Translations under genes and position numbers: made by a program
Assembly: GCF_000829375.1 (NCBI RefSeq)
Contig: NZ_AP014624.1
Location: 4,278,001 to 4,342,000 of the forward strand
Length of the DNA stretch: 64,000 bases
Direction of reading: 5' to 3'
Source of the DNA: Chryseobacterium sp. StRB126
GTDB taxonomy: Bacteria > Bacteroidota > Bacteroidia > Flavobacteriales > Weeksellaceae
Shown: piece by piece, positions 4,911 through 44,970 of the stretch
Layout: the number at the start of each line of letters is the position of its first letter
Position numbering within the stretch: position 1 is the first letter of the stretch
Notes under the pieces: model-generated
Databases searched by the model: none
Seen by the model: the letters and a program-made list of their open reading frames with translations, nothing else
What the model was told of the DNA's origin: nothing

Positions 4911-4932
4911 TTAACTACAGAGAGTGGTAGAA

Positions 4933-4968
4933 GGTGTGAATGGAAAGCAACCGTTTGAAATTCACACC
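4933..4968 (+). terminator. Inverted repeat after the pspC gene, possible terminator
   Basis: GGTGTGAAT at 4933-4941 pairs with ATTCACACC at 4960-4968, 22 bp after the stop codon. The following bases are pyrimidine-rich (ATTCTTCTCTC) rather than a pure T tract, so the terminator reading is tentative. Confidence 0.4.
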
Positions 4969-5085
4969 ATTCTTCTCTCATAAAAGTGAAAAAAAGTTAA
5001 CATTTAGTTCTCCATATGGAAAAATTGTTATAACTTCGTTCAGTTAAAATTTAATAACCAACCAACACTAAAAAACACTCTTATT

Positions 5086-5148
5086 ATGATACAATTTGCA
5101 ATGGAATTCGTAATGAAAATCGTAGATTTAATCAACGGTTTGTTTTAA
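5086..5148 (+). CDS. Candidate 20-residue amphipathic micropeptide
   Basis: An ATG at 5086 opens a 20-codon frame ending in TAA at 5146-5148 (MIQFAMEFVM then KIVDLINGLF). Polar residues fall at positions 3, 7, 11, 14 and 17, the 3-4 spacing of a single polar face on a helix; all others are hydrophobic. This is the architecture of membrane-active peptides such as phenol-soluble modulins, delta-lysin or type I toxins. It stands alone between the PspC gene and the acyltransferase with an A-rich leader upstream, and no longer frame covers it. No homologue is recognised. Expression is unproven and a chance ORF of this length is possible. Confidence 0.4.
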   Translation: MIQFAMEFVMKIVDLINGLF

Positions 5149-5225
5149 GAGCAATAATATTTCAATATATTTGTAAAAGTATAACCAAATTGGTTATACT
5201 TTTTTTGTTTTTAATCCAAGAATCT

Positions 5226-5810
5226 ATGAAAAAGCTGTTAGGCAAACTGATGTTAAAATTATTAGGATGGAAAGTTGTTCTACAAGGCGATGTAAACGTC
5301 CTGAACCGATGTATCCTGGTGGTAGCACCGCATACCCATAATATGGAATACATTTTAGGAAACTTTGCCTATTGGTCTCTGAATAAACCTTTAAAAATCA
5401 TTATTAAGGATGCACACACCAAGGCTTGGTATGGAGGGATTGTAAAAGGGCTTGGAGGGATAGGTATAGACAGAAGCCAGAAAAATGACCTTGTGAATTT
5501 TGTAGCCAGCCAATTTGCCAAGGAAGACTTCAGCCTTGTAATTACCCCAGAAGGAACAAGAAGCTGGGTTCCAAAATGGAGAAAAGGATTTTATCATATG
5601 GCTATGGCAGCAAAAGTACCTATTGTATTGGCAGCAGGAGATTTCAAAAGAAATATAGTATACCTTGGCTACACCATTCCTTACGAAAGAATTGCATCTG
5701 TTCCGTTTTCTGAGATCATGCAGGAAATTCAGGATTATTATGTGAAAAACGATATTGTCCCTAAGGTTCCGGCCAACTGGAATCCAAATATTATGGGAAC
5801 AGGAGAATAA
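5226..5810 (+). CDS. PlsC-like acyltransferase
   Basis: A 194-residue protein from the ATG at 5226 (MKKLLGKLML). An upstream in-frame start at 5190 adds a hydrophobic tail that overlaps the leader and is less likely. It has the acyltransferase block I in variant form, APHTHNMEY, where HTHNME replaces the usual NHxxxxD, and block III ITPEGTRS, which binds the glycerol phosphate or equivalent. These features place it with short 1-acylglycerol-phosphate or lysophospholipid acyltransferases found across Bacteroidota. It would transfer an acyl chain from acyl-CoA or acyl-ACP to a lysolipid at the inner membrane; the acceptor is not known. The thioesterase gene follows 55 bp later. Confidence 0.8.
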   Translation: MKKLLGKLMLKLLGWKVVLQGDVNVLNRCILVVAPHTHNMEYILGNFAYWSLNKPLKIIIKDAHTKAWYGGIVKGLGGIGIDRSQKNDLVNFVASQFAKEDFSLVITPEGTRSWVPKWRKGFYHMAMAAKVPIVLAAGDFKRNIVYLGYTIPYERIASVPFSEIMQEIQDYYVKNDIVPKVPANWNPNIMGTGE

Positions 5811-5865
5811 TAAAGATCATTTCTCGTCATCATCATTTATCAATCATCTCTTATCTATTATAAAA

Positions 5866-6294
5866 ATGAAAGGTCAGACAAAAGAAGAAATACTAGCATT
5901 CATCAATAACTGGGGAGGCGAAACCCTGGCAAAAGCAATGGAAATCAAATTCATTGATATTGATCTCGAAAATGAAACCCTTACCGCTACCATGCCGGTC
6001 CTTCCAAGAACACATCAGCCTTTCGGAATCATGCATGGTGGAGCAAGCTGTGTACTGGCTGAAACTCTAGGTTCTAGCCTGTCTAATATCTTCATTGACG
6101 GCGATAAATACTATGGTGTAGGAACCAATATCAACTCCAACCACCTAAAAAGTAAAAAGGACGGAATTGTAACGGCTACTGCACGTTTTATCAGAAAAGG
6201 AAAAACAATGCACGTTTCTGAAATTGAAATCAGGGATGAAAAAGGAACGCTCATCAACCATACTACCATGACGAATAATATCATCAATAGATAG
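5866..6294 (+). CDS. Hotdog-fold thioesterase, probable DHNA-CoA hydrolase
   Basis: 142 residues from the ATG at 5866. The frame is open further upstream, but that extension overlaps the acyltransferase end and is not conserved-looking. It carries the PaaI/MenI signature: the loop HQPFGIMHGGASCVLAETLGS with the catalytic acidic residue in the helix, then VGTNINSNHLKS and the final strands. Enzymes of this group hydrolyse aryl or 1,4-dihydroxy-2-naphthoyl-CoA. The next gene encodes isochorismate synthase, which strongly suggests the menaquinone step. A strong hairpin at 6315-6342 ends this unit, and isochorismate synthase has its own promoter. Confidence 0.82.
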   Translation: MKGQTKEEILAFINNWGGETLAKAMEIKFIDIDLENETLTATMPVLPRTHQPFGIMHGGASCVLAETLGSSLSNIFIDGDKYYGVGTNINSNHLKSKKDGIVTATARFIRKGKTMHVSEIEIRDEKGTLINHTTMTNNIINR

Positions 6295-6314
6295 GTTGAA
6301 TATCCATAAAAATT

Positions 6315-6342
6315 AAAAGCTCAAAAAAATTGAGCTTTTTTT
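6315..6342 (+). terminator. Rho-independent terminator after the thioesterase gene
   Basis: AAAAGCTCAA at 6315-6324 pairs with TTGAGCTTTT at 6330-6339 and runs into a T tract, 21 bp after the stop codon. Confidence 0.85.
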
Positions 6343-6414
6343 ATATCCTTACTGCAACCTTTTGTTTTTTCATCTAAAAAAAACATGTTTCCTTAAAAAA
6401 CAGCTCATATAATT

Positions 6415-6444
6415 TTGACATCTTTAAGACTAATAATACCTTTG
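6415..6444 (+). promoter_or_regulatory. Promoter of the isochorismate synthase gene
   Basis: TTG at 6415-6417, a 19-bp spacer, and TACCTTTG at 6437-6444, a perfect match to the Bacteroidota consensus TTG-N19/20-TAnnTTTG. The expected start site is near 6450, leaving a leader of about 68 nt before the ATG at 6518. The spacing agrees with the three tRNA-Phe promoters in this window. Confidence 0.75.
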
Positions 6445-6517
6445 CAGAAAGGAAAATCAACTTCGGAATTTCCTATATTATTTCCGGTTAGTGATTTTCA
6501 AAATCCGTTCATAGCTC

Positions 6518-7486
6518 ATGATTTATTTCAAACTTCCCTTCAACGAAGGATTATATGCTGTAGAAGAAACAACTGATAAAAATGCAGTCAATTTTCATTC
6601 CTATAACAGCCTGAATCAGATCAACTTTAATGGAAACATCCTCAAGGTTGAGTTTGCAAATTGGAAAGAAGTTTCGATTACTAATAAGTCCCTGGCAAAT
6701 GATACTACAGGTTTTACAGCAGAAACTAAGGAAGAATATTGCAGTACTTTAGAACAGGTAATTGAAGTGATTAAAGAAAATGATCTTCCCAAATTGGTTT
6801 ATTCAAGGAGAAAGATCTTTACAGACTTTCATACAATTGATTATAAGGCCAGTTTTGATAATCTATGTAAAACTTATCCCAATGCTTTCAGATATCTGTT
6901 TAATGATGGACAAAATGCGTGGATGGGAGCTTTTTCTGAAGTATTAGGTAAGTTTAATAAAGCTACGCATGAGTTTGAGACCATGGCACTGGCTGGAACC
7001 CTTCCCACCTCTGAAGAATGGACGGAAAAAGAGATTGAAGAACAGAAACCGGTTAGCACTTACATTCAGAATATTCTTAAAAACTATTCGGATCAGGTAC
7101 AACAATCTGAAACTTATGATCATGTTTCCGGAAATATTAAACATCTTCGTACAGATTTTAAAACAACTGTAAAACCCAGTGATCTTGATCGCTTAATTCA
7201 GGATCTTCACCCTACTCCGGCAGTTTGTGGTATCCCTAAAGATTTCTGTAATGAAAACATCCGGAAGTATGAGAAATTCCCCCGTGAATTCTATGCCGGC
7301 TATATCAAAGTAGAAACAGAAGAGAGTATTCTTTATTTTGTAAATCTTCGATGTGCAAGATTGTACAAAGATACCGTACATGTTTTTGTAGGCGGTGGTA
7401 TTACTGCCCAAAGCAACCCCGAAAAAGAATGGATTGAAACAGAGTTGAAATCTGAAGCTATTTTGAAAAACCTGGTGGTTTCTTAA
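6518..7486 (+). CDS. menF: Isochorismate synthase (menaquinone pathway)
   Basis: 322 residues of the chorismate-binding fold, shorter than E. coli MenF (about 430) because the N-terminal region is reduced, as is usual in Bacteroidota. Conserved blocks are visible in order: KLVYSRRKIF, the ALAGTLP segment with E in the following helix, HPTPAVCG, and the C-terminal GGGITAQSNPEKEWIETELKSE that binds Mg and chorismate. It converts chorismate to isochorismate, the first committed step to menaquinone. A DHNA-CoA thioesterase-like gene lies upstream and menC is at 43954-44970, so the pathway is spread along the chromosome. It could instead serve a siderophore, but no such genes are nearby. Confidence 0.88.
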   Translation: MIYFKLPFNEGLYAVEETTDKNAVNFHSYNSLNQINFNGNILKVEFANWKEVSITNKSLANDTTGFTAETKEEYCSTLEQVIEVIKENDLPKLVYSRRKIFTDFHTIDYKASFDNLCKTYPNAFRYLFNDGQNAWMGAFSEVLGKFNKATHEFETMALAGTLPTSEEWTEKEIEEQKPVSTYIQNILKNYSDQVQQSETYDHVSGNIKHLRTDFKTTVKPSDLDRLIQDLHPTPAVCGIPKDFCNENIRKYEKFPREFYAGYIKVETEESILYFVNLRCARLYKDTVHVFVGGGITAQSNPEKEWIETELKSEAILKNLVVS

Positions 7487-7637
7487 TTTTTTTAAACCAC
7501 AGATTTCTTTCTGATAATTTATTTACAAAGAAAGGATAAAATATGTTTAGATTCTTTCTGAATGACAAAGTGTATGGTTTAATCTGTTTTAAATCATTGT
7601 GGAATTTGTGAAACTATTTGTGTTTCAGTAGTAAGTT

Positions 7638-7700
7638 TCGGCTAAAGCCAGATGAATTTTATTGGGTTTATTTAGGCGGGCTAAAGCCCACCTCTATTGA
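7638..7700. repeat. Dispersed GGCTAAAGCC-type repeat, copy 1
   Basis: A 63-bp stretch containing GGCTAAAGCC, then GATGAATTTTATTG, then GGCGGGCTAAAGCCCACC, i.e. two related palindromes separated by an AT-rich spacer. A degenerate second copy lies at 14254-14300. The palindromic arms could form hairpins in the transcript downstream of isochorismate synthase. The remaining sequence from 7487 to 7637 shows no gene. Confidence 0.6.
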
Positions 7701-7751
7701 TGTTGATATCCGTACCGATATACAAGGAGAAAAGTAGTTGTTTAACGACAA

Positions 7752-7857
7752 TATCTTTTATCTTTTATCTTTTATCTTTTATCTTTTATCTTTTATCTTT
7801 TATCTTTTATCTTTTATCTTTTATCTTTTATCTTTTATCTTTTATCTTTTATCTTTT
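7752..7857. repeat. Heptanucleotide tandem repeat (TATCTTT)x15
   Basis: The unit TATCTTT is repeated about 15 times without interruption over 106 bp. It lies between the 3' ends of two convergent genes. An open frame through it (IFYLLSF repeated) is a by-product of the 7-bp period and is not a gene. Such perfect short arrays vary in copy number by slippage and would be a useful strain marker. Confidence 0.97.
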
Positions 7858-7915
7858 CCCCATAAAAAAACCTCCTTCAAAAAAGAAAGAGGCTATATCT
7901 ATATAAATATTTAAA

Positions 7916-8113
7916 TTACTTCTTTACACCGATTCGGCTCCAGGTATCCATTACAAAAAGCAGGATAAGACCTATTGCAGCAGCGGATGCAGAAAATACA
8001 AACTTAATGTTGTCTTCATCAGCAATAAGGTCATTCTGCCAGTTGATAGCATACAAATTAATAGCGATGAAAATGATGAACAGTACTAAAAATACTTTAT
8101 AAAACTTCTTCAT
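7916..8113 (-). CDS. Small two-helix membrane protein
   Basis: 65 residues with two hydrophobic segments (roughly 6-23 and 38-56) separated by an acidic loop (LIADEDN), and a short basic tail (RIGVKK). It starts 5 bp after the stop of the MarC gene and so is probably translated from the same message. No function is recognised. The tight coupling to MarC and the typical membrane topology argue that it is a real gene. Confidence 0.7.
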   Translation of the reverse strand: MKKFYKVFLVLFIIFIAINLYAINWQNDLIADEDNIKFVFSASAAAIGLILLFVMDTWSRIGVKK

Positions 8114-8118
8114 AATTT

Positions 8119-8721
8119 TTAAAAATTAACATAATTCAGCACCAATTGGGCAAAATTTGCAGTGAATAATTTAATTGAAATCGCTAAAAGGATAATACCG
8201 AAAACTTTCTGAAGAATCATCAAAGTAGCATCTCCTATTTTCTGCTCCAACCATTTCGCTGATTTCAGCACCAAATATACGAAAATTGTATTAAGAATAA
8301 TTCCGAAAATAATATTAATATCATGAAATTCAGCTCTGAGGGATAGCGCTGTTGTTAGAGTTCCGGCACCTGCAACCAGTGGAAATGCGATGGGTACGAT
8401 AGATGCAGCCTTTGCCTCGGTTGTTTTATTGATTTCAATTCCTAAAATCATTTCCAGCGCTATGACAAAAATCACAAAAGCTCCGGCAATCGCAAATGAA
8501 TTGACATCTACTCCAATGAGCTTTAGAATTTTATTTCCTACAAATAGGAAAACAATCATAATTACTCCTGCAGTAATTGCAGCCTTACCAGCTTCAATCT
8601 TTCCGAACTTCTGCTGAAGACTTACTATAATGGGAACTGAGCCGATAATATCGATAACGGCAAAAAGAACCATAAAGCTGGTAACGATCTCTTTAAAAGA
8701 GAAACCATCAAAAATTTCCAT
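8119..8721 (-). CDS. MarC-family integral membrane protein
   Basis: 200 residues with six predicted membrane segments and the family hallmarks FAVIDIIGSVPI near the N-terminus and PLVAGAGTLTTALSL in the fourth segment. MarC/YchE/YhcE proteins are inner-membrane proteins whose transport substrate has not been settled; the old link to multiple antibiotic resistance was not upheld for E. coli MarC. The ATG at 8721 lies 44 bp after the batD stop on the same strand, so it may be the tail of the Bat transcript. Confidence 0.9.
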   Translation of the reverse strand: MEIFDGFSFKEIVTSFMVLFAVIDIIGSVPIIVSLQQKFGKIEAGKAAITAGVIMIVFLFVGNKILKLIGVDVNSFAIAGAFVIFVIALEMILGIEINKTTEAKAASIVPIAFPLVAGAGTLTTALSLRAEFHDINIIFGIILNTIFVYLVLKSAKWLEQKIGDATLMILQKVFGIILLAISIKLFTANFAQLVLNYVNF

Positions 8722-8765
8722 CTCTTTGTAATTAAAAATTTCGCAAAAATATGAAAATAAATTAA

Positions 8766-10505
8766 TTATTTGCTAATTTGTGAATATAAATTAACAATTG
8801 TTTTCAAAAGTTCTTCTATACCATCATGAGATTTCACAGGAGCATATTTCTCCATCTGAATTTTCTGCTGCAATCTTGCATATTGTTCAGCCACTGAAGA
8901 GCCTTTGTGTTTTTCAAGAAAAGTCTTAAACTCTGCAGTAGAGCCTTGAAAATACTGGTTTCTCACTTCCTGATCCAATTCTTCCAGTGTAACAAAAAAC
9001 TTTTCATAATCGCCATTATCTTTGAGGTTTTCAAGATAACCAAAATAATCGTTGATATCCGTTTTCAGCAACTCTCTAATCTCTTTTTCCGTTTCAGCCA
9101 CAGAACCTAAAGGTTTTTGAGGTACGGTTTCCCTAACTAATGTACGTTTTTTTTGCCAAGTTTTAAATAGCAGGTACAGAATAAATAAACCTAAAAGAAT
9201 GGCAATATTGGTTAAAAGAATATTCCAGTGGAATTTACTCTTTTCTTTTACTTTAAATGAAGTGGTTTTAAGAACCGGAGTATCTACCGTCTCCAAAAGG
9301 TTATTGGTATATTCATTCACCTTTTCCACTGTAGAGCGGGATTCCATTACCTGATCGTGGGAAAGTGCATTTACATCCAAAATTTTCTGCCCCAAATCCA
9401 TATATTCTTTGCTCTCAGGATCAAAGAAAGCAAACGGTTCTGTCCTAATAGAAATAGCTCCTGATTTGTTAGGAATTACTACATAATTGGCAAAAACTTC
9501 TCCTTTCATCCCCGTGCTGCCCGGATAAACCTTTGAGATGACCTTTGGAGCAAAAACTTCATAATCGGGAGATGCTGCAATTTTCGGAAGTACCAGATCC
9601 GGTAAGTTTCCTTCTCCGGCAACCTTTACAACAACATTCAATGGCTTTTTAGCTTCAGGTTTTTCTTTCGTAGTATTATAAACGCTTACGTTAAAATTTC
9701 CAACTGCATTTTTAAAACCATCAGGGGCACCTTCCGGAAGTTTTCTTACATTAATTTTTACTTTATTGGAAACAATTTTATTTTTATTTGAATAGGAACT
9801 TACGGATGCCGATACTCCAGGCACTTCAACATATCCGGCTTCATTCGGGAAAACCATAAACATCGCCAGGATCTGGGATGCCATATTTCCGTTATCAGAC
9901 GGATCAATTTCAGATTTATTGAAATTAATTGGGTGTACGTTGATGTTTTCCTGTTGTGGAAGACGGATATTCTTTACTTTCCTAAGATTATCTATATTTC
10001 TGGAATATACTTTCAGAACAGCAATGGTAGGCTGATCCTGATATACATTCCTGTCTTCAATCTCCATATTCAGATATACTTCATTGGAAGTATTACTGGC
10101 TAAGGATTTCTTTTCAACAATATCTCGGATATTAACGTCGAAAGGTTCGGTTTTATAGATTTTATTATTGACGGTAACCAGTACTGATCCAATTTTAATT
10201 TTCCCTTTTTTCTTAGGCTCAAGAGCAATTCTGGATACTTTCTGAGTAATAAGTGTATTGGTTGCAGGATCAATCACGGTATTGGTTACGGATCCGCTGC
10301 CGATAATATTGAATTTTGAAAGATCCGGAAGCTGGAAACCCGTCTGCTGAACAAGATCACTCCCATTCAGTTCAAGAATTATTGTAAGGTTTACGATATC
10401 CTTACCTCCGTAATCGTTCTTATCAGCATCAAGAGAAAGATTTACCTGTCCGTAAGTAATTACGGATGCTAAAGTAAGCAATATGTAAATCAATTTGTTT
10501 TTCAT
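8766..10505 (-). CDS. batD: BatD aerotolerance protein
   Basis: 579 residues. The ATG at 10505 overlaps the TGA of batC (TGATG), which decides the start; a TTG six bases upstream is less likely. A signal peptide (LIYILLTLASVITYGQ) is followed by the oxygen-tolerance/BatD domain of repeated beta-sandwich units, one membrane helix near 430-450 (LTNIAILLGLFILYLLF) and a cytoplasmic helical tail. BatD is the last protein of the Bacteroides aerotolerance system, thought to sit in the inner membrane with its bulk in the periplasm and to work with the BatA/B von Willebrand proteins. Its mechanism is not known. Confidence 0.92.
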   Translation of the reverse strand: MKNKLIYILLTLASVITYGQVNLSLDADKNDYGGKDIVNLTIILELNGSDLVQQTGFQLPDLSKFNIIGSGSVTNTVIDPATNTLITQKVSRIALEPKKKGKIKIGSVLVTVNNKIYKTEPFDVNIRDIVEKKSLASNTSNEVYLNMEIEDRNVYQDQPTIAVLKVYSRNIDNLRKVKNIRLPQQENINVHPINFNKSEIDPSDNGNMASQILAMFMVFPNEAGYVEVPGVSASVSSYSNKNKIVSNKVKINVRKLPEGAPDGFKNAVGNFNVSVYNTTKEKPEAKKPLNVVVKVAGEGNLPDLVLPKIAASPDYEVFAPKVISKVYPGSTGMKGEVFANYVVIPNKSGAISIRTEPFAFFDPESKEYMDLGQKILDVNALSHDQVMESRSTVEKVNEYTNNLLETVDTPVLKTTSFKVKEKSKFHWNILLTNIAILLGLFILYLLFKTWQKKRTLVRETVPQKPLGSVAETEKEIRELLKTDINDYFGYLENLKDNGDYEKFFVTLEELDQEVRNQYFQGSTAEFKTFLEKHKGSSVAEQYARLQQKIQMEKYAPVKSHDGIEELLKTIVNLYSQISK

Positions 10506-11251
10506 CACCAATCTTTCTCGTTGCTTTCGGGCATCGAATAAGAATTCTTGTTTAAAATTCTTCTGGCGGTTTCTTTTTCTTTTTCGTTTATTTTATCTAA
10601 GAGCTGATTTTCAAGATTTTTCGGCATTCTGCCCTCATTATTCTGATTTTTCTGAGGATTGCCCTGGTCACTTTTACCTTCGTTTTGCTGGCCATTTCCC
10701 TGATCCTGTCTTTGATCCTTTTTATCACCTTTCTGATCTTCACCTTTGTTCTGATCATTACCACTACCGCCGCCTTGTCCGGACTTATTCTGCTCGTTTT
10801 TGTTTTGTTGCTTTTCTTTTTCCTTTAGTTTAGCAATCTCATAATTTTTACGGGTAGCTTCACTGTAAGGATTTTGTTTAAGCGATTTTTTATAATAATC
10901 TGCCGCTTTTTCCGGCTGATTCATCTGCATATAGGTATTTCCTAAATTATGAAGGGCAGCCGCCTTGTCCGGAAGCGTTTGTGAAAGTTGTTGTGCTTTT
11001 TCAAATTCCGCTTTTGCTTCTTCATACTTTTTACTTTTATACAAAGCATTTCCCATATTGTAATGAGCCGTAAAATCTTTGTCATTGGATTTTACAGCTT
11101 CTACATATTTAGAAGAGGCTCCGTCATAGTCTTTACCGTCAAATTTCTGATTGCCTTCATGAACCAAAGTTCTGTAGTTTTCCTGCCCAAACAAAAAGCC
11201 TGAGAATGAGAAAGCAACTATAAACGATAAAAATATGATTTTAGTATTCAT
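10505..11251 (-). CDS. batC: BatC, TPR-containing aerotolerance protein
   Basis: 248 residues from the ATG at 11251; an upstream TTG at 11260 is possible but unlikely. A signal peptide (IIFLSFIVAFSFSGFLFGQ) leads into three or four TPR motifs between about 30 and 135 (AHYNMGNALYKSKKYEEAKA, ALHNLGNTYMQMNQPEKAAD). A low-complexity Q/N/G/K-rich region follows (about 155-205), then a short conserved tail (LENQLLDKINEKEKETARRI). TPRs usually hold protein partners together, here presumably the other Bat proteins at the membrane. It is separated from batB by a 99-bp gap and overlaps batD. Confidence 0.92.
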   Translation of the reverse strand: MNTKIIFLSFIVAFSFSGFLFGQENYRTLVHEGNQKFDGKDYDGASSKYVEAVKSNDKDFTAHYNMGNALYKSKKYEEAKAEFEKAQQLSQTLPDKAAALHNLGNTYMQMNQPEKAADYYKKSLKQNPYSEATRKNYEIAKLKEKEKQQNKNEQNKSGQGGGSGNDQNKGEDQKGDKKDQRQDQGNGQQNEGKSDQGNPQKNQNNEGRMPKNLENQLLDKINEKEKETARRILNKNSYSMPESNEKDW

Positions 11252-11350: not shown

Positions 11351-12358
11351 CTATAGATTGAAATCATTTTTGGGATTAAAAATATAAATTAAAAAGAAAA
11401 ACAAGATAGATACCGCTAAAAAATATTGATAATAATGGTTTGCATTCTGTGATTTTACCAGTGTTTCTGATCCTGAAGACTTCTTATTAATAGCATCAAT
11501 GATCCTGTCCGGAGCCTCATTGATATTATTTCCGTCAATATATGCTCCTCCTGTAGAACCTGCCATTTTACTCAAGGCTTCAGTTTGTCTTTTGGAAATA
11601 ACCGTACTTCCATTGACATCCGTTTTATAGCCCATCAATTGTCCATCGTTGTATACAGGAACCGGAGCTCCTTCATCCGTTCCTATTCCTACAGAGGTAA
11701 TAGTAATTCCTTCTTTATTGGCAAGCCTTATGGCTGCATTGTCATTCCCTTCATTATCTTCACCGTCACTCAGCAATATAACTTTTCGGGACCCTTTGCT
11801 TACATTTTTAAATTTCTCAGTGGCTGCCTGCATTCCTTTCAGAAAATCTGTTCCCTGGATCTTCATGGAGTTGGTTTCAATAGCCCCAATATAAGTTTCC
11901 GCAGAATTATAATCTGTTGTTAAAGGCATTATTGATATAGCCTGACCTGCAAAAATAACAATTCCGATCTTATCGTTCTTCATTTTCGACATAGTCTGCA
12001 TCATCAGGTTTTTGGCCTCTGTAAGGCGACTCGGTTCAATATCTTCTGCATTCATGGAGTTGGAAACATCCAACATAAAGATCACATTATTCAACCTCTG
12101 ATTACTTTTCACCTCTTCGGATCCATTCAAAAGATCGATGATTGAAAATATCAGAAATAACGTACCCAACAGGTATAACGCAGGAAAAAACCTTGTAAAT
12201 CCTGAATTCTTTTCAAACAAATGATCATGAAACTGGCCGGCAGCAAAGATATCTCTCTTTTTCTTTCTCCATTTAAAAAAACGAACCAAAAAGAAAGCTA
12301 ACAGCGGCAATAGCAACAGTAAAAATAAATACCAGTAATTTCCTAAAGACCAACTCAT
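11351..12358 (-). CDS. batB: BatB, von Willebrand factor A membrane protein
   Basis: 335 residues. Membrane segments at about 7-27 and 58-78 precede a von Willebrand A domain whose metal-ion-dependent adhesion site reads DVSNSMN, with the companion residues T (TTDYNS) and D (LLSDGEDNEG). A final membrane helix lies near 310-328 (QYFLAVSILFFFLIYIF). The ATG overlaps the batA stop (TGATG). BatA and BatB are paralogues believed to form a membrane complex with BatC-E; loss in Bacteroides lowers tolerance to oxygen. Confidence 0.93.
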   Translation of the reverse strand: MSWSLGNYWYLFLLLLLPLLAFFLVRFFKWRKKKRDIFAAGQFHDHLFEKNSGFTRFFPALYLLGTLFLIFSIIDLLNGSEEVKSNQRLNNVIFMLDVSNSMNAEDIEPSRLTEAKNLMMQTMSKMKNDKIGIVIFAGQAISIMPLTTDYNSAETYIGAIETNSMKIQGTDFLKGMQAATEKFKNVSKGSRKVILLSDGEDNEGNDNAAIRLANKEGITITSVGIGTDEGAPVPVYNDGQLMGYKTDVNGSTVISKRQTEALSKMAGSTGGAYIDGNNINEAPDRIIDAINKKSSGSETLVKSQNANHYYQYFLAVSILFFFLIYIFNPKNDFNL

Positions 12359-13350
12359 CAGCTTAAAATTTTATAAAACACCCATCTCATTAATGCATCC
12401 AGTACCAGCACCGCCAAAGCTATCCAAAGAAAGATCTTGAAATACTCTTCATAGTTATACAGCTTTGATACTTTTACATCAGATTTTTCCAACTGATTGA
12501 TCTCATCATATACTTCTTCAAGGCTGCTGTTGGAAGTAGCTCTGAAATATTTTCCACCTGTAGTCTGAGCAATTTCTCTCAAGGTATTTTCATCGATAGT
12601 TACCTCAGCTTCAGTAAAAATAAGATCTCCGAAAAAATCTACGGCTGTTGGCATCAGCGCATAACCATTTGTCCCAATACCAATGGTGTATACCTTTATA
12701 TTATTATTTTTTGCCAGTTCTGCCGCAAGTTGTGGCGGGATTGCATTTTCAATATTACTTACCCCGTCCGTCATCAGAATGATAACCTTGCTTTTGGCCT
12801 TACTTTTAATCAAATGATTCACAGCAACAGAAAGCCCTTCTCCAATGGCTGTTCCCGGTTCAAGACCTGTAGAATTAAGATTTTTGATCTCATCAATCAC
12901 CACCTGATGGTCTGATGTAACAGGAACTTTGGTAAATGCTTCAGCCGCATAGGCAACTACTCCTATCCTGTCATTCGGACGTTTCTGAACAAATTTAACA
13001 GCAATATCCTTCAGGGCAGTAATACGATCCGGATTTAAATCTTTTGCCAGCATACTGAGTGAAACATCAATAGACAGCATAATATCTACTCCTTTGGTAT
13101 CATCTCTGTCCTGTGAAACCGTAAAGGTTCTGGGTCTTGCCATGGCAATAATAAGTGCCGAAAGAATGATATACTTTGATATCTTCAATAAGAAAAGAAT
13201 ACCTTGTATACTGCCACCCGTTCCCATATTTTTTATGGTAGGAACTTTTATACCTTTTCTTTTCTTTTTACCCGCATCTTTTATGATAAGAGGAATAAAC
13301 AGCAGAAAAAGCAGTAAAAACCACGGACTGTAAAATTCAAAACTAAACAT
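12358..13350 (-). CDS. batA: BatA, von Willebrand factor A membrane protein
   Basis: 330 residues with the same plan as BatB: a first helix (PWFLLLFLLFIPLII), a second near 53-72, a von Willebrand A domain with intact MIDAS (DVSLSM, then TSD and MTDGVSN), and a C-terminal helix (FLWIALAVLVLDALMRW). It begins inside the last codons of the upstream BatD-like gene (8-bp overlap) and ends overlapping batB, so translation of the three is coupled. Position and motif quality make the assignment secure; the biochemical role remains unknown for the family. Confidence 0.93.
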   Translation of the reverse strand: MFSFEFYSPWFLLLFLLFIPLIIKDAGKKKRKGIKVPTIKNMGTGGSIQGILFLLKISKYIILSALIIAMARPRTFTVSQDRDDTKGVDIMLSIDVSLSMLAKDLNPDRITALKDIAVKFVQKRPNDRIGVVAYAAEAFTKVPVTSDHQVVIDEIKNLNSTGLEPGTAIGEGLSVAVNHLIKSKAKSKVIILMTDGVSNIENAIPPQLAAELAKNNNIKVYTIGIGTNGYALMPTAVDFFGDLIFTEAEVTIDENTLREIAQTTGGKYFRATSNSSLEEVYDEINQLEKSDVKVSKLYNYEEYFKIFLWIALAVLVLDALMRWVFYKILS

Positions 13351-14239
13351 CCTTTCTTAAGTTTTCGAATTCTAAATCTTTGGATGATCTTTTCACAAAG
13401 TCTCTGATGTCTGCAAAGTCTTTCTCCATCACTGCCTGATCCGGAAATGTTTTGGCAAATTTCACCAAATCGCCTCTCAGGAATACTTCTTCTATAATTT
13501 TCTCATTATCCTGAGAAATGGTATTGTTCTTCTTCATTACATCAATAAGGTCATCTGTTAAAAGAACATCTGCAGGAAGATGATATTGTTTTGCAATAAA
13601 GTTTCTAGATATTTCGATCAGTTCCACATAGAACGAACGGAAATTACCGTCTTCAATATATTTTTTCTTTTTAAGGGAATCCAATTCCTTCAAGGTTTGG
13701 TTGGTGGCTACCACTGGAGAGCTTTTCGCTTTTCTGCCCCATTTTACAATCATAATGATAGCAATAATCAGAGCAATGGCTGCCAATGCTGCCAAAATAT
13801 AAAACTTGTACAGTTCCCAATAATCTTTGGCATCAAGCTTCACCTCCTTGTTTTTCATGATATCATTAATCTGGTCGGCTTTCTGCGCTGTATTAATGAC
13901 TTCTATTTCGTAAGGAATGGTTTTTAGTAGTTTATCTCCTACTTTAAACTCCAGTTCAGGAATGGTAAATTTCCCTTCTTCAAAAACGGCAAATTCTATT
14001 TTTCTTTCGTAGGAATTAGCATTTTGTCCAATGCTGTCTTTGGTTTCTTCAAAGTGAAAAGGCAGCAATTCATTTTTGGCTGCAGAGTTTACCTGCTCAT
14101 CATGGATATTATCAATCTTTATAACAAGATGATTGGTTTCTCCCAGAGCAATGGTTTTCTTCTCTACATTGGAGGATAATATCTGTGAAAAAGCATTTGC
14201 ACAGACTAGAAAAGATAGTATTAAAAGTATTTTTTTCAA
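13343..14239 (-). CDS. BatD-like/oxygen-tolerance protein of the Bat operon
   Basis: About 298 residues if translation starts at the TTG at 14239-14237, which gives a clean signal peptide (LKKILLILSFLVCANAFSQ). The frame also has an ATG at 14287, but those first residues come from a dispersed repeat and would push the signal peptide inward. The mature part has a periplasmic beta domain (LGETNHLVIKIDNIHDE...), one membrane helix near residue 150-175 (ILAALAAIALIIAIIMIVKW) and a helical cytoplasmic domain. It matches the extra gene found between DUF58 and batA in Flavobacteriia and probably partners the von Willebrand proteins. Confidence 0.75.
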   Translation of the reverse strand: MKKILLILSFLVCANAFSQILSSNVEKKTIALGETNHLVIKIDNIHDEQVNSAAKNELLPFHFEETKDSIGQNANSYERKIEFAVFEEGKFTIPELEFKVGDKLLKTIPYEIEVINTAQKADQINDIMKNKEVKLDAKDYWELYKFYILAALAAIALIIAIIMIVKWGRKAKSSPVVATNQTLKELDSLKKKKYIEDGNFRSFYVELIEISRNFIAKQYHLPADVLLTDDLIDVMKKNNTISQDNEKIIEEVFLRGDLVKFAKTFPDQAVMEKDFADIRDFVKRSSKDLEFENLRKDV

Positions 14240-14253
14240 TGTTAAATAATAAT

Positions 14254-14300
14254 AAAGGCTAATGCCTGATGTTTTATTGACGGGCAAAACCCACCGTTAT
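14254..14300. repeat. Dispersed GGCTAAAGCC-type repeat, copy 2 (degenerate)
   Basis: Contains AAAGGCTAATGCCTGATG, then TTTTATTGACGGGC and AAAACCCACC, in the same order and spacing as 7638-7700 but with mismatches. It fills the gap between the DUF58 gene and the next gene of the Bat operon and includes the last codon of the former and the only upstream ATG of the latter. Confidence 0.5.
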
Positions 14301-15160
14301 TTTTTCTGAAAATAATTATACAACAATTTTGAATAATCCGAACCGGTATTTACATTCATAAAACTTGCCGAACTATTGGCAAAATCTTCTTCCAACGCTC
14401 TTAATTTCTGTTTCTGAGCTTCTGCAAAGGTATATCTCCATCTTGCACTGGAAGTATTGGCCCATATTTCTTTTCCTGTTTCCACATCATACAGCAAGGT
14501 GTACCCTACATCAGGAATTTCATTGTCTTTTTCATCATAAATCCTCATTCCTAACAGCTGATGTTTCTTGGATGCCACTCTCAGCATTTTAGAGTCATAT
14601 TCATCCTGAAAGTCTGAAAGCAGGAATACCAAAGATTTTCTTTTAAAAATCCCCATCATATATTCCATCGCCTTATCTATTTTAGATTCTGCCGGAACAT
14701 AGTCTGCCGTAAGAATATTGCTGATGATGGAAAGAATATGTTTTCTTCCTTTTTGAGGAGGAATTACTTTATATACTTTATCAGCAAACAGAATCAATCC
14801 TACCTTATCATTATTTCCAGCTGCTGAAAATCCTAAGCTGGCCGCAATTTCTGCAACATATTCTCTCTTCAGCTGAGCTTTTGTTCCATAATTCATAGAG
14901 GCGGAAATATCTACTATGAGCATCATGGTCAATTCCCTTTCTTCTTCCATTACCTTTACAAATGGCTCACGGAAACGTGCTGTTTTATTCCAGTCGATTC
15001 TCCTTATCTCATCACCAAACTGGTATGGGCGGACTTCCGAGAAAGTCATCCCCTGCCCTTTAAAGGCACTGTGATATTGCCCCATTAAAGCAGCCTCCGT
15101 CTTCTTTCTGGTACGGATTTCTATCTGCTTTACTTTTTTTACAATATCTTTTATCTGCAT
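14297..15160 (-). CDS. DUF58-domain protein of the MoxR/Bat operon
   Basis: 287 residues. The DUF58 core is seen in VRPYQFGDEIRRIDWNKTAR (around 43-62), and the following von Willebrand-like half carries DISASMN and LLSDFQDE. Such proteins lack membrane segments and always accompany a MoxR ATPase, which is thought to act on them as a chaperone in assembling the membrane complex. It lies in the expected position after moxR, although here a GNAT gene sits between the two. Confidence 0.9.
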   Translation of the reverse strand: MQIKDIVKKVKQIEIRTRKKTEAALMGQYHSAFKGQGMTFSEVRPYQFGDEIRRIDWNKTARFREPFVKVMEEERELTMMLIVDISASMNYGTKAQLKREYVAEIAASLGFSAAGNNDKVGLILFADKVYKVIPPQKGRKHILSIISNILTADYVPAESKIDKAMEYMMGIFKRKSLVFLLSDFQDEYDSKMLRVASKKHQLLGMRIYDEKDNEIPDVGYTLLYDVETGKEIWANTSSARWRYTFAEAQKQKLRALEEDFANSSASFMNVNTGSDYSKLLYNYFQKK

Positions 15161-18533: not shown

Positions 18534-19871
18534 ATGTATAAAAGACTATTTTTTGCAAGTCTATTCATTACAGGCCTCTTCAAATCACAGACAACCACTG
18601 TGACGAATTTGATTTCAGATGCTGTATACTATGATGGTTATGCTAATACCACCACTGAACCCGTTCCTTCTGGCCTGATCAGGCTGGGCAATACAAAATA
18701 TGCAAGAAAACTTACAGATGCAGAATTGAACTCTTTTAAGGCAAAAATTGCCATGAGAGTAACCATAGGTGCACTATGTGATAACTACGATCGTCTGGGA
18801 GAGGTATTTTTGGCTCTGGTTCCTAAAAACCAACCTACTTATACTATGAATGACGCTAATGTGAAAAGAATTGAAGCAGCCCGTTACATCACTCCCTTCA
18901 TGAATAAAAACCGAGCTCCAATAGAAGTCCCATTCACTTATGACATCAGCAATCTGTACAGCGTATTTCATAATACAGAACTGCGAAATGCTTATGATAT
19001 GTATATGGAACTTGATGTTTTTGGAGTACCTTATGCTGCACAGACACAAGTTGCAGGCTGTGCAAATAGAATTGATGTTTTTTCAGGAAACCTGACTTTC
19101 TTCTCAACTGACGTAGGAGCCACTCCTACAGATTACAATACATTGGTTCCTATATTAAGTTATAATAAACTCAACAACTACAACAGTACTGATACTCCAG
19201 GAGAAACAGTAAGACTTGTCACATTCAATCTTCCTACCGCTGTCACCAATGCTCGCTTTTTTGTAATCTCCACTCCGCATGGAGCTGGTGCAGGTGGTGA
19301 AGAATATGTTAGAAGACAAAACTACACCTATATAGATGATGTACAGGTATTGACCTATACTCCAGGTGGAATTTCCTGTGAACCTTTCAGAGCATATAAT
19401 ACACAAGGTAACGGAATCTATCAAACTACTCCTGCAACTTTTGCACAATGGACTTCATGGAACAACTGGTGCCCGGGCAACTCGGTTCCTATCAGAGGTT
19501 TTACTTTACCCTCTATGACTGCCGGAAATCACACTTTAAAACATACAATCCCTACTGCTGTTTTTAATGGACAGGATGGTGATGTATTTTTATCTGTTTA
19601 TATGCAGGGGAAAAGCAATGCCTCTTTACATGTAGAGGAGGTAAAAACAATAGATGTAAATATCTATCCTAATCCTACTACTGATTTTGTCAATATAAAA
19701 TCGAAAGAAGATGTCACATCCATGACCCTTTTCAGTATGGATGGAAGAAAACTGGCTGAAGTTTATAGAGAAAACAGAATCAATCTTTCATCATACAGTA
19801 CTGGAATTTATTTTTTAAATATTGTTTTGAAGGATGGAACCACTTTTAAGCATAAAGTCATCAAAAAATAA
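18534..19871 (+). CDS. PNGase F-like glycoamidase with T9SS sorting domain
   Basis: 445 residues. A signal peptide (to SQTT) is followed by two jelly-roll domains like those of PNGase F. CDNYDR at 82-87 corresponds to CDEWDR, whose aspartate is catalytic in the Elizabethkingia enzyme, so D86 is the candidate. RYITPF at 117-122 and NWCPGNSVPIR at 311-321 also match. GGEEYVRR at 254-261 would carry the second catalytic acid. From about 370 there is a T9SS type A tail (IYPNPTTDFVNIKS ... GIYFLNIVLKDG). It should cleave N-glycans from asparagine outside the cell. Sequence match is partial, so substrate range may differ. Confidence 0.68.
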   Translation: MYKRLFFASLFITGLFKSQTTTVTNLISDAVYYDGYANTTTEPVPSGLIRLGNTKYARKLTDAELNSFKAKIAMRVTIGALCDNYDRLGEVFLALVPKNQPTYTMNDANVKRIEAARYITPFMNKNRAPIEVPFTYDISNLYSVFHNTELRNAYDMYMELDVFGVPYAAQTQVAGCANRIDVFSGNLTFFSTDVGATPTDYNTLVPILSYNKLNNYNSTDTPGETVRLVTFNLPTAVTNARFFVISTPHGAGAGGEEYVRRQNYTYIDDVQVLTYTPGGISCEPFRAYNTQGNGIYQTTPATFAQWTSWNNWCPGNSVPIRGFTLPSMTAGNHTLKHTIPTAVFNGQDGDVFLSVYMQGKSNASLHVEEVKTIDVNIYPNPTTDFVNIKSKEDVTSMTLFSMDGRKLAEVYRENRINLSSYSTGIYFLNIVLKDGTTFKHKVIKK

Positions 19872-41461: not shown

Positions 41462-41615
41462 TAAATTAGCTTTTATTTTATAGCAAAAAAAGTGGCACAA
41501 AGTTACGGAAAAATAAGCGTTTTTGAAAATGATAATTTTAAAGCCACCAGCATTGTAATTCATTATTTTTCACTAATTTAGAAAAAGCTAAAACCATCGT
41601 ACCAAATTATTGCCC

Positions 41616-42746
41616 ATGGCTGTTTATATCTTAAGCAATCGGAAAATCGTTCGCCATACAGGCGAAAAAGTAGATTCTTTTTCCAATGACGAATATTCAA
41701 TTCCTAATTTCAGAATTGCAAAATGTGATTTTGATAACTATAAGGAACCTACTGTTGCAGCCAGAAAGAAAAAAGACTACACCAACCGGAATATCCTGAA
41801 TTATACACTATTCTCTGAACCTGAAAAGCAAGGCTATGAAGAGGTTTTGGAAGTTCTGTTACGTGAAAAAGGAATCAAAGAGTCCCCTCTTACAGCCAAT
41901 AATCTTGGCGGAACCCAACGGTTATTTTATGAACTGTATAAAAATATGTCTGCCACCAAGGAAAGAAGTGATGTATTGATATTCATCCATGGTTATGCTT
42001 ATGATTTTGATGATGAATTAAAAGCTATGATTGATCTTAAAAAGCTTTTCATTGATAATCCGGCCTCTCCTGTTGAACATATTTTATTTGTGAGTTGGCC
42101 TGCCTCCAGCAGCATTGTGCCACTGACATATTTTGATGATAAGGCATCCAGTATCAATTCCGGAACATCATTACTGAGACTGTTTTATTTTTATACCCAA
42201 TTTTTAAAGGATATTTTTTCCAACCGCAATCTGGTTCCTTGCAACCAGAGAATTCATATCGTGGCTCATTCTATGGGAAACAGGGTTCTTCAAAGTATGT
42301 TATACAGCCTTAAAAGGGAAAATATTCTCAGAGTGATTGACCAGGTCATTCTGCTTAATGCTGACGTTTCCTATAAAGTATTTGAAGACTCTGAAGATTC
42401 ATTCAATAAACTACCGTTGCTTTCCAACCGGATTTCTATTTATCTGAACAGGCAGGACCTGATTCTGGGAATCTCACAATTTACTAAGAATATTCTTACT
42501 CCACGGCTGGGCAAAAACGGGCCAAGTGATATCACTCCTTATAAAGATATTGTTTCTATCATCGATTGTACTTTTGTAAAAGATGATGTATTAAGTAGTT
42601 TCAAATTTGAAGTTGGAAATCATTGGGGATACCTTTCCAGCTCACAAGTACAGAGTGATATCTTCCAAAATTTATATGGTATAGATAGAAACCTTATCAA
42701 TAACCGAATTAAAGAAAACGAAAATATTTTCACAATTATTTCTTAA
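41616..42746 (+). CDS. Alpha/beta hydrolase (DUF900-like)
   Basis: 376 residues from the ATG at 41616. The alpha/beta-hydrolase core is seen in DVLIFIHGYAYDFDD (oxyanion hole region), the nucleophile elbow HIVAHSMGNRVLQSM with serine as nucleophile, and a late histidine in VGNHWGYLSS. The DUF900 group shares this arrangement, and its members are mostly uncharacterised esterase- or lipase-like proteins. No signal peptide is seen, so it is probably cytoplasmic. It is transcribed divergently from glnS with 154 bp between the start codons. Confidence 0.75.
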   Translation: MAVYILSNRKIVRHTGEKVDSFSNDEYSIPNFRIAKCDFDNYKEPTVAARKKKDYTNRNILNYTLFSEPEKQGYEEVLEVLLREKGIKESPLTANNLGGTQRLFYELYKNMSATKERSDVLIFIHGYAYDFDDELKAMIDLKKLFIDNPASPVEHILFVSWPASSSIVPLTYFDDKASSINSGTSLLRLFYFYTQFLKDIFSNRNLVPCNQRIHIVAHSMGNRVLQSMLYSLKRENILRVIDQVILLNADVSYKVFEDSEDSFNKLPLLSNRISIYLNRQDLILGISQFTKNILTPRLGKNGPSDITPYKDIVSIIDCTFVKDDVLSSFKFEVGNHWGYLSSSQVQSDIFQNLYGIDRNLINNRIKENENIFTIIS

Positions 42747-43248: not shown

Positions 43249-43416
43249 ATGAAAAACCTTAGAAAATTAAACAAAGGAGAGCTAAAAAAGATTAATGGAG
43301 GAAGACCTCCTCTTGGGTGCAACAACTGGGATCCTGAAGCCGCATGCTGCAGATCGTGGGCCGAAGGATACAGTGGTGGGAAAACCTGCCCCAATTCACC
43401 ACCTCCATATTGCTAA
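43249..43416 (+). CDS. GG-leader Cys-rich bacteriocin-like peptide 1
   Basis: A 55-residue precursor. The leader MKNLRKLNKGELKKINGG has the double-glycine type (L-x-K-x-E-L-K-x-I-x-G-G) cut by C39-peptidase ABC exporters. The predicted core of 37 residues, RPPLGCNNWDPEAACC then RSWAEGYSGGKTCPNSPPPYC, has five cysteines and a W-D motif. It matches the peptide at 43805-43957 in the pattern C-N-x-W-D-x2-A-x-C-C-x2-W-x3-Y, so these are paralogues under constraint. Export followed by disulfide formation or further modification is inferred. No exporter or modifying enzyme is present in the window. Confidence 0.75.
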   Translation: MKNLRKLNKGELKKINGGRPPLGCNNWDPEAACCRSWAEGYSGGKTCPNSPPPYC

Positions 43417-43419
43417 TTA

Positions 43420-43656
43420 ACCCGAGTTCAGGATCATAAAATTAAGGATAATAGATTGGAAGCTGGAAGGGTGAGGCTGGAAGTTACTATCGGAACTACA
43501 ATTTATGACGTTGCCGTAAAATTTGATGAAGCAGTCTTTAAAGGAATAATACATTACAGGGTTGTAAGTGTTTTTTTAACCTCAACTCACTTCCCTCTCC
43601 CAGCTCTAGGCTTCCTTCCTTACTAAAAACAGAAATGTCTTATCCCGAACTCAGGT
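43420..43656. mobile_element. IS982-derived miniature element (237 bp)
   Basis: The ends ACCCGAGTTCAGG at 43420-43432 and the complement of ACCTGAGTTCGGGAT at 43642-43656 are those of the IS982 element at 1470-2500. No transposase is present. Flanks TAATTA and TATTTA fit a decayed 6-bp target duplication. The interior holds a GGAAGCTGGAAG-type repeat and a pyrimidine-rich counterpart. The right half occurs again at 50245-50370. It is probably mobilised in trans by the intact IS982 transposase. Confidence 0.75.
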
Positions 43657-43681
43657 TATTTAATATTCTTCACTGAATCAT

Positions 43682-43756
43682 CTCATTTCTGAAATCTAAA
43701 CAACATTCAGAATTATTTACAAATAAAGCTCCAATGCCTAAAATTTGTGGCATTGG
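43682..43756 (-). pseudogene. Remnant of the 3' end of menC
   Basis: 75 bp that match 43987-44061, the coding sequence for the C-terminus of menC, at 67 of 75 positions and with no gap. It has no start and no continuing frame. Its place downstream of the first GG-leader peptide is the same as that of menC downstream of the second one, apart from the inserted miniature element. Confidence 0.85.
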
Positions 43757-43804
43757 GCTTTGTATTATATTCAAATTTAAATCTAATTGCTGAAAATATC
43801 AATC

Positions 43805-43957
43805 ATGAGAAATCTAAGAAAACTAGAAAAAAGAGAATTAAAGACTATGAATGGAGGAAATATCCCAGTAGTACCCATAGGCTGCAATATATGGGACTCA
43901 AGAGCCAGATGTTGTAAACAATGGGATTGGGAATATTCAAATAATCCAACTTGCTAA
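43805..43957 (+). CDS. GG-leader Cys-rich bacteriocin-like peptide 2
   Basis: A 50-residue precursor with the leader MRNLRKLEKRELKTMNGG and a 32-residue core, NIPVVPIGCNIWDSRARCC then KQWDWEYSNNPTC, with four cysteines. Leader and core align with the peptide at 43249-43416: GCN-x-WD, CC, W and a final C are shared, while the rest differs. Its stop overlaps the menC stop on the opposite strand by 3 bp. Leader type points to export by a C39-peptidase ABC transporter encoded elsewhere. Activity as bacteriocin or signal is inferred only. Confidence 0.75.
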   Translation: MRNLRKLEKRELKTMNGGNIPVVPIGCNIWDSRARCCKQWDWEYSNNPTC

Positions 43958-44970
43958 TTCAATTCTATAGTATTAAACCACAACAGCTCATTTCTGAGAT
44001 CTAAACTGGATTCAAAATTATTTACAAATAAAGCTCCAGTGCCTAAACCTTGTGGCATTGGATTTTTTTTTGTGAAGGTATATTGAGCAATGGCATTTAA
44101 GCCGATATTGCTTTCCAGTGCCGAAGTTATCCACCACTCAATATTCTGTGATTCTGCCATAGAGATCCACTCATCAGAACCGGCAAAACCACCTACCAAA
44201 GCTGGTTTCAAAATAATATACTGTGGCTTTATCGTTTCTAAAAGCTTTTTCTTCTCTTCAGCATCTGTAATTCCGATCAATTCTTCATCCAGAGCAATAG
44301 GTGTAGGTGTCTGAGCACACAATTCTGCCATATCAGTCCAGTTACCAGCTTTAATAGGCTGCTCAATGGAATGAATGTGTAAATCAGCCAACTGCTGAAG
44401 AACTGTTCCGGCTTCTTCCTTACTGAATCCGCCATTGGCATCTACCCGAAGCTCCAGTTGATCTTTTGAGAATTTTTCTCTTAATTTTTGAAGAATAACG
44501 TGTTCCGATTTCCAATCAACTCCGATTTTTAATTTGATACAATGAAATCCTTTTTCAAGTTTATCCTGAATCTGTTCTTCCATAAACCCAACATTGCCCA
44601 TCCAGATCAATCCGTTGATGGTAATGGCAGATTTTCCTTCCGTAAACTCACTTGGAAAATAAAGATTCCCTCCAAATTTTAAGTTCCGAACAGCCTGTTC
44701 ATATCCAAACCATAGGGATGGGAAATCTTTTAATTCTTTTTTCAGGAAATCCGGATTTTGGTCAATATTTTTACAAAGCCATTTTAACTTCTCTTCATAA
44801 TCCGGTCTGTCATCAAAGCTCAACCCTCTGAAGATGGCACACTCCCCTATTCCTTTCTTCCCATTTTCTGAAATTTCAAGAATAAAGGTTTCCTTATCAA
44901 GCAAAACGCCGCGAGATGTTCCACTCGGGCGTTTGAATTCTAATAAATATTTAAAATAGGATGCTTTCAT
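43954..44970 (-). CDS. menC: o-Succinylbenzoate synthase (menaquinone pathway)
   Basis: 338 residues of the enolase superfamily. The catalytic set of the muconate-lactonising/OSBS group is visible: K146 and K148 in CIKLKIG, D177 in LRVDANGG, E203 in HSIEQP, D228 in ALDEE and K255 in IILKPALVGG. It dehydrates SHCHC to o-succinylbenzoate, with Mg bound by the three acidic residues. Its ATG overlaps the stop of the fbp gene (TAATG), so the pair forms one transcript. It ends tail to tail with the second GG-leader peptide. The other menaquinone genes seen here are at 5.9-7.5 kb. Confidence 0.88.
   Translation of the reverse strand: MKASYFKYLLEFKRPSGTSRGVLLDKETFILEISENGKKGIGECAIFRGLSFDDRPDYEEKLKWLCKNIDQNPDFLKKELKDFPSLWFGYEQAVRNLKFGGNLYFPSEFTEGKSAITINGLIWMGNVGFMEEQIQDKLEKGFHCIKLKIGVDWKSEHVILQKLREKFSKDQLELRVDANGGFSKEEAGTVLQQLADLHIHSIEQPIKAGNWTDMAELCAQTPTPIALDEELIGITDAEEKKKLLETIKPQYIILKPALVGGFAGSDEWISMAESQNIEWWITSALESNIGLNAIAQYTFTKKNPMPQGLGTGALFVNNFESSLDLRNELLWFNTIELN

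Follow-up and report, generated by a model that had tools for sequence, protein, structure and literature searches.

A menC-linked family of double-glycine-leader, cysteine-rich peptides in Chryseobacterium, with a candidate export and oxidation locus elsewhere in the genome

The Peptide Locus

The stretch of DNA analyzed here (the window) comprises 64,000 nucleotides of Chryseobacterium sp. StRB126 (contig NZ_AP014624.1, positions 4,278,001 to 4,342,000). It holds two short open reading frames (ORFs), P0001 and P0002, for which the original prediction gave lengths of 55 and 50 residues; translation confirms both the lengths and the positions. The features of the locus are as follows.

41610..42746, + strand: DUF900 alpha/beta hydrolase, upstream neighbor (Pfam PF05990)
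43249-43416, + strand: P0001 ORF, 55 aa (translation)
43249..43302, + strand: P0001 leader, MKNLRKLNKGELKKINGG, 18 aa, double-glycine type (translation; NF047798, 27.4 bits against a cut-off of 23.5)
43303..43413, + strand: P0001 core, 37 aa, 5 Cys; stop codon at 43414-43416
43413..43672, no strand assigned: MITE-like repeat of about 250 bp, directly after the P0001 coding end
43679..43766, - strand: relic of the menC 3' end (menC residues ~302-330), an 88-nt direct repeat (tblastn to menC)
43805-43957, + strand: P0002 ORF, 50 aa (translation)
43805..43858, + strand: P0002 leader, MRNLRKLEKRELKTMNGG, 18 aa (translation; NF047798, 17.5 bits, below the cut-off)
43859..43954, + strand: P0002 core, 32 aa, 4 Cys; stop codon at 43955-43957
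43954..44970, - strand: menC-like enzyme (o-succinylbenzoate synthase type), downstream and convergent (MR_MLE_C over its cut-off, MenC_N below)

The stop codon of P0002 overlaps that of the convergent menC. The two cores were thought to retain their cysteines alike, but their counts are unequal, five in P0001 and four in P0002. The predicted monoisotopic masses of the reduced cores are 3982.674 Da (P0001) and 3766.690 Da (P0002), and the mass shift proposed for the mature peptides, minus 4 or 2 Da, is revised: each could be lighter by as much as 4 Da (4.03 Da with two disulfides).

Peptide genes of this family stand alone or in tandem arrays with as many as six copies. The relic between P0001 and P0002 spans 88 nt and is 85% identical to positions 43984-44071, and menC 3' relics are also found at three other family loci (L058, L060, and L061). 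These relics make tandem duplication, with the menC tail included in the duplicated unit, the most likely way in which the array grew. The chromosomal site is fixed: of the 111 family loci that were fetched, with a few genomes represented twice, 104 adjoin menC, 87 of these 104 also have the DUF900 gene within the fetched stretch, and 7 of the 111 have neither. Among 28 of the 75 genus genomes without a detected full core, menC is present in all 28 and DUF900 lies beside it in 17. A motif scan of these 28 genomes found no GG peptide within 1500 nt beyond menC, and two of them have a possible peptide remnant.

The terminal inverted repeats of the MITE-like element are imperfect and were read by eye; an automated repeat search did not report them. 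The element has 41 matches in its own genome, the window copy included, and the long ones are mostly 85-94% identical. No coding role was seen for it at 43413..43672. Elsewhere in the window are two terpene synthase genes in tandem (PF19086, 50857-52920) and a gene for a Peptide-N-glycosidase F-like protein with a Por_Secre_tail secretion sorting domain (18534-19871).

A Shared Leader

Substrates of C39 peptidases carry leaders of the LxxxELxxIxGG type, with hydrophobic residues at -4, -7, -12, and -15 and Gly-Gly at -2/-1. The P0001 leader has this pattern (I-4, L-7, E-8, L-12, L-15, and GG). It also matches NF047798, “leader_Chryseo, bacteriocin-like protein”, at 27.4 bits, over the cut-off of 23.5; P0003, a relative, scores 25.4, and P0002 falls below at 17.5. 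All 41 members of alignment A2 match this model at E ≤ 0.1. It describes the same leader but spans its 18 residues only, leaving the core uncovered. The peptides had been described as a family that was not recognized, which no longer holds, as NF047798 matches P0001 over its cut-off and public relatives are already named “bacteriocin-like protein”. This kind of peptide is therefore partly known, by name. No model for the core was found in NCBIfam or Pfam, where a sub-threshold Bacteriocin_IIc match to P0001 is all that Pfam returns for the pair, and no paper on the core was found among the hits of the literature searches, some of which were covered in part.

A search of the genome for other ORFs with the same leader had been proposed, and there are many: 29 matches to NF047798 over the cut-off, P0001 among them, and 64 at E ≤ 10. 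Eight of 14 control genomes have matches at E ≤ 10, none over the cut-off. A script extracted 38 leader-type ORFs from the fetched loci, one of them apparently spurious. Across the genus, leader matches at E ≤ 0.001 occur in 160 of 173 genomes, with 1 to 47 each, counts that are lower bounds in the larger genomes (49 candidates scored).

The StRB126 genome also has two groups of tandem Cys-rich GG peptides at locus L037 (G000:C1:3415500-3431600), at least four in the first (1161-2044) and at least two in the second (4652-4905), with a longer and somewhat different leader. Locus L033 contains an intergenic tandem array (~1250-2130) with imperfect repeats of roughly 97 bp, as judged by eye.

The Core Family

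The consensus core, given as the commonest residues of 112 aligned members, is P-[LI]-G-C-N-x-W-[DN]-x4-C-C-[RK]-x-W, followed by about nine residues and a Cys. The alignment holds 112 distinct sequences, that is, 115 minus one cut at a locus edge and minus trimmed rows that merged; the start codon chosen for each ORF was one giving a leader-like stretch where possible, with a fallback otherwise. Members were picked by the motif C..W...CC..W, and therefore invariance at the motif positions reflects how they were selected. Outside the motif, Leu(-7), Gly-Gly, the core Pro, and the fourth Cys are nevertheless invariant in 112 of 112 (columns 24, 29-30, 37, and 63). All members thus have the four core cysteines, three by way of the search motif and the fourth independently of it. 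The core pattern originally described for the pair is real and well beyond chance, a profile of 11 homologues finding the family genus-wide, but two of its details do not generalize: the first W is followed by D in 72 members, by N in 39, and by S in 1, and neither the “A” ahead of CC nor the “Y” is constant.

When these loci were scanned with a profile and no motif, 145 unique ORFs emerged, 15 of them without the motif: 10 of a sister type, 2 whose cores are degraded, and 3 having just the leader. The sister type (loci L170-L178, in genomes G147, G171, G056, G066, G010, G103, G099, G031, and G150) has a core that mostly reads APxCC[LI]xW[ND]P...C..W...C, in which the second CC is short of one Cys and an extra Cys precedes the first.

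The core is present in at least 98 of 173 genomes of the genus and intact in at least 96; genome and copy counts are lower bounds, as loci were taken from the profile matches listed. One distinct intact copy is found in 77 of these 96 genomes, two in 12, three in 4, and four, five, and six in one each. The 11-homologue profile (alignment A1) matches 152 of the 173 genomes at E ≤ 1e-3, many at the level of the leader only. Protein searches returned overlapping sets of 7 (query P0001), 3 (P0002), and 40 (alignment A1) homologues; those with an organism in their name are all from Chryseobacterium, and several are titled “bacteriocin-like protein” or “bacteriocin”. In named genomes 48 loci were detected, again all in Chryseobacterium, the nearest being those of C. 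jejuense CC143 (98%) and C. contaminans C-26 (96%). Among 320 genomes from 33 genera of the bacterial family, 126 match at E ≤ 1e-5, of which 122 belong to the same genus. In the four others (three in genus g9, one in g10) the best E-values range from 7.3e-8 to 4.5e-6, and the matches listed include no full core outside Chryseobacterium. The Flavobacteriia, first suggested as a search range, are accordingly too wide.

The family evolves under purifying selection, and the core is more constrained than the leader. Across 45 disjoint pairs, the dN/dS ratio is 0.13 overall, 0.18 for the leader, and 0.11 for the core, bearing out the earlier view of genuine, selected GG-leader peptides. P0001 and its closest homologue differ by a dS of 0.42 and a dN of 0.008. 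An AlphaFold model with P0003 as query (41-row alignment) has a core β-hairpin of moderate confidence, with pLDDT values of 84, 85, and 79 for successive ten-residue blocks of residues 21-50, a mean of 74.2, and a pTM of 0.47. Comparison of the modeled core with the PDB gave no useful match.

Cysteine Pairing

Two further cysteines, at P0001 residues 42 and 55, are both present in 52 of the 112 members and both missing in 59. The single split case is P0001 of the window, with Ser42 and Cys55; close relatives have Cys at position 42. That the two are present or absent together suggests a third disulfide, Cys42-Cys55, lost from this P0001. On a tree built without the two columns, only 3 and 2 changes are seen and independent pairs give no significant result in a sign test, so that the independent support for co-occurrence is small. 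Since Ser42 leaves Cys55 without its predicted partner, mature P0001 should carry one unpaired Cys.

A Candidate Export and Oxidation Locus

The original prediction placed the maturation system outside the window. Both C39 matches of the genome do lie outside it, and a Pfam scan of 34 of the 50 window ORFs of at least 120 aa found no family of peptide exporters or peptide-modifying enzymes (7 of these 34 match nothing). The genome, a single 5.5-Mb contig, encodes two C39-ABC proteins. One is part of a locus at 0.95 Mb with a HlyD-like protein (HlyD_3), a fusion of VKOR and Thioredoxin_4 with CRVC and CGFC motifs, and two leader peptides; this is the candidate maturation system. Its distance from the two peptide genes is 3.4 Mb as the contig runs, or about 2.1 Mb in the opposite direction should the molecule be circular. 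The same locus also carries a grasp-with-spasm pair and a TIGR04139 precursor; these ATP-grasp and SPASM enzyme genes and the precursor are at 11589-14876 on the minus strand of L044 (G000:C1:941000-960000), beside the C39/VKOR genes. The second C39-ABC protein is encoded 0.16 Mb from the pair within a LanB/LanC-type cluster (L055, G000:C1:4148000-4166000), where genes for LanB-like, LanC-like, and C39-ABC proteins stand in a row at 4708-11227, forming a lanthipeptide-type cluster. This second transporter could serve the pair instead.

A VKOR-thioredoxin match (E ≤ 1e-20) is found in 162 of 173 genus genomes and a C39 domain in 169. Leaders and VKOR-thioredoxin occur together in 159 genomes, VKOR alone in 3 (G030, a weak match, G089, and G137), leaders alone in 1 (G069, which has four leaders and neither VKOR nor C39), and neither in 10. 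All 98 core-bearing genomes have a VKOR-thioredoxin match. This co-occurrence may be inherited by descent. Within the short flanks of the best 30 of the 162 VKOR loci, C39-ABC is adjacent in all 30, SPASM is present in 8, a leader peptide is detected by script motif in 11, and HlyD was not found.

Comparison with Known Systems

A parallel in architecture is provided by the bacteroidetocins, a proposed class IIf. They are reported to have a GG leader, four cysteines, a C39-ABC transporter, and a thiol oxidoreductase, with no immunity gene evident; full activity requires the oxidoreductase, its deletion having an attenuating effect, and the peptides behave as disulfide-bonded (PMC6671954). The pair shares with them the GG leader, the four cysteines, and the presence of C39-ABC and thiol oxidoreductase genes in the genome. 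The likeness is one of architecture and gene set. The bacteroidetocin leader is reported to have 15 residues and the mature peptide 42 (PMC6671954), against 18 and 37 or 32 for P0001 and P0002. The bacteroidetocin precursor is described there as clustering with the C39-ABC, thiol oxidoreductase, and transmembrane protein genes, whereas P0001 and P0002 are separated from the exporter locus by 3.4 Mb.

Other assignments fit less well. Class IIa (pediocin-like) bacteriocins have a GG leader and a disulfide-type core in common with the pair, but the YGNGVxC motif, as quoted in PMC6671954, is absent from both cores. NF047792, the CCPGW family of putative bacteriocins, is weakly matched by 31 of the 41 members at E ≤ 0.1 (best 1.7e-4), and its match to P0001 spans leader and core; with 13.9 bits P0001 stays below the cut-off of 80 and P0002 has no listed match, and membership was rejected. 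Chryseoviridin graspetides and chryseobasin (ChrA/ChrH) are also ribosomal peptides of Chryseobacterium. These are reported to need ATP-grasp or DUF692 enzymes (PMC8939145; PMC10214503), the chryseoviridin precursors are also reported to be tandemly duplicated (PMC8939145), and ChrA has a terminal CPACGMG motif, which P0001 and P0002 lack.

Proposed Pathway and Alternatives

P0001 and P0002 are probably precursors from a shared-leader repertoire, exported by a C39 transporter, oxidized by VKOR-thioredoxin and, most likely, antibacterial like the bacteroidetocins. We infer their cleavage, export, disulfides, and function, and the roles in leader cleavage, export, and oxidation are drawn from the gene set and the analogy to bacteroidetocins. 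The 18-residue leader would bring the precursors to the C39 peptidase-ABC transporter, whose C39 domain would cleave after GG during export with participation of the HlyD-like adaptor. The VKOR-thioredoxin protein encoded beside the transporter would then oxidize the core cysteines to give a compact, disulfide-stapled peptide, with two disulfides in the four-Cys type and three in the six-Cys type. Some 30 or more leader-sharing precursors would use this one dedicated locus in trans.

Antibacterial use, taken by itself, is plausible while falling a little short of probable, and a fixed locus under strong purifying selection is less usual for fast-diversifying bacteriocins. The main alternative, which is rather unlikely, keeps the same export route and has the peptides act on or for the producer, as extracellular signals or surface/biofilm factors. 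The constant site beside menC, the single copy in most genomes with an intact one, the stronger constraint on core than on leader, and the lack of a recognized immunity gene between or beside the window peptides (among the neighboring ORFs) all fit such a use. The immunity-gene point is neutral, as the bacteroidetocins are likewise described without an obvious one (PMC6671954). A signaling role would sit less easily with the lack of a recognized receptor or regulator gene beside the peptides, or with the 75 of 173 genus genomes in which the core was not found (the 98 with it being a lower bound). It is possible, if doubtful, that a genome-wide repertoire of dozens of unlinked precursors shares one export locus in trans while the window family, with its two Trp and its CC staple, is kept vertically beside menC for a conserved signaling or self-directed function and is not a swapping bacteriocin.

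It is quite improbable that the peptides are modified RiPP precursors whose cysteines end in non-disulfide links made by a radical-SAM/SPASM, ATP-grasp, or lanthipeptide enzyme. TIGR04149 (rSAM-modified RiPP) is matched by 22 of the 41 members at E ≤ 0.1 (best 1.3e-4), and grasp-with-spasm and LanB/LanC-type genes exist in the genome; yet P0002 reaches 15.8 bits, under the cut-off of 25, P0001 has no listed match, and membership was rejected. None of the 34 scanned window ORFs matches such an enzyme, SPASM accompanies only a minority of the best 30 VKOR loci (short flanks), and two cysteines that are either both present or both absent agree with disulfides. That the ORFs are spurious or decaying remnants without a product is scarcely credible: some copies elsewhere contain stops, two genomes (G025 and G116) have non-intact copies only, and P0001 has lost a Cys kept by its relatives, but the dN/dS of 0.13 and the low dN of P0001 against its closest homologue contradict this reading.

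Implications

A vague label, “bacteriocin-like protein”, can now be replaced by a defined family of cores that has a constant genomic site, a pattern of cysteines from which its disulfides are predicted, and a candidate export and oxidation system. Because P0001 has naturally lost a Cys, it lends itself to testing the number of bonds that the fold requires. Should a single exporter-oxidase locus serve dozens of unlinked peptides, its deletion would expose a whole small-peptide secretome in a common environmental genus.
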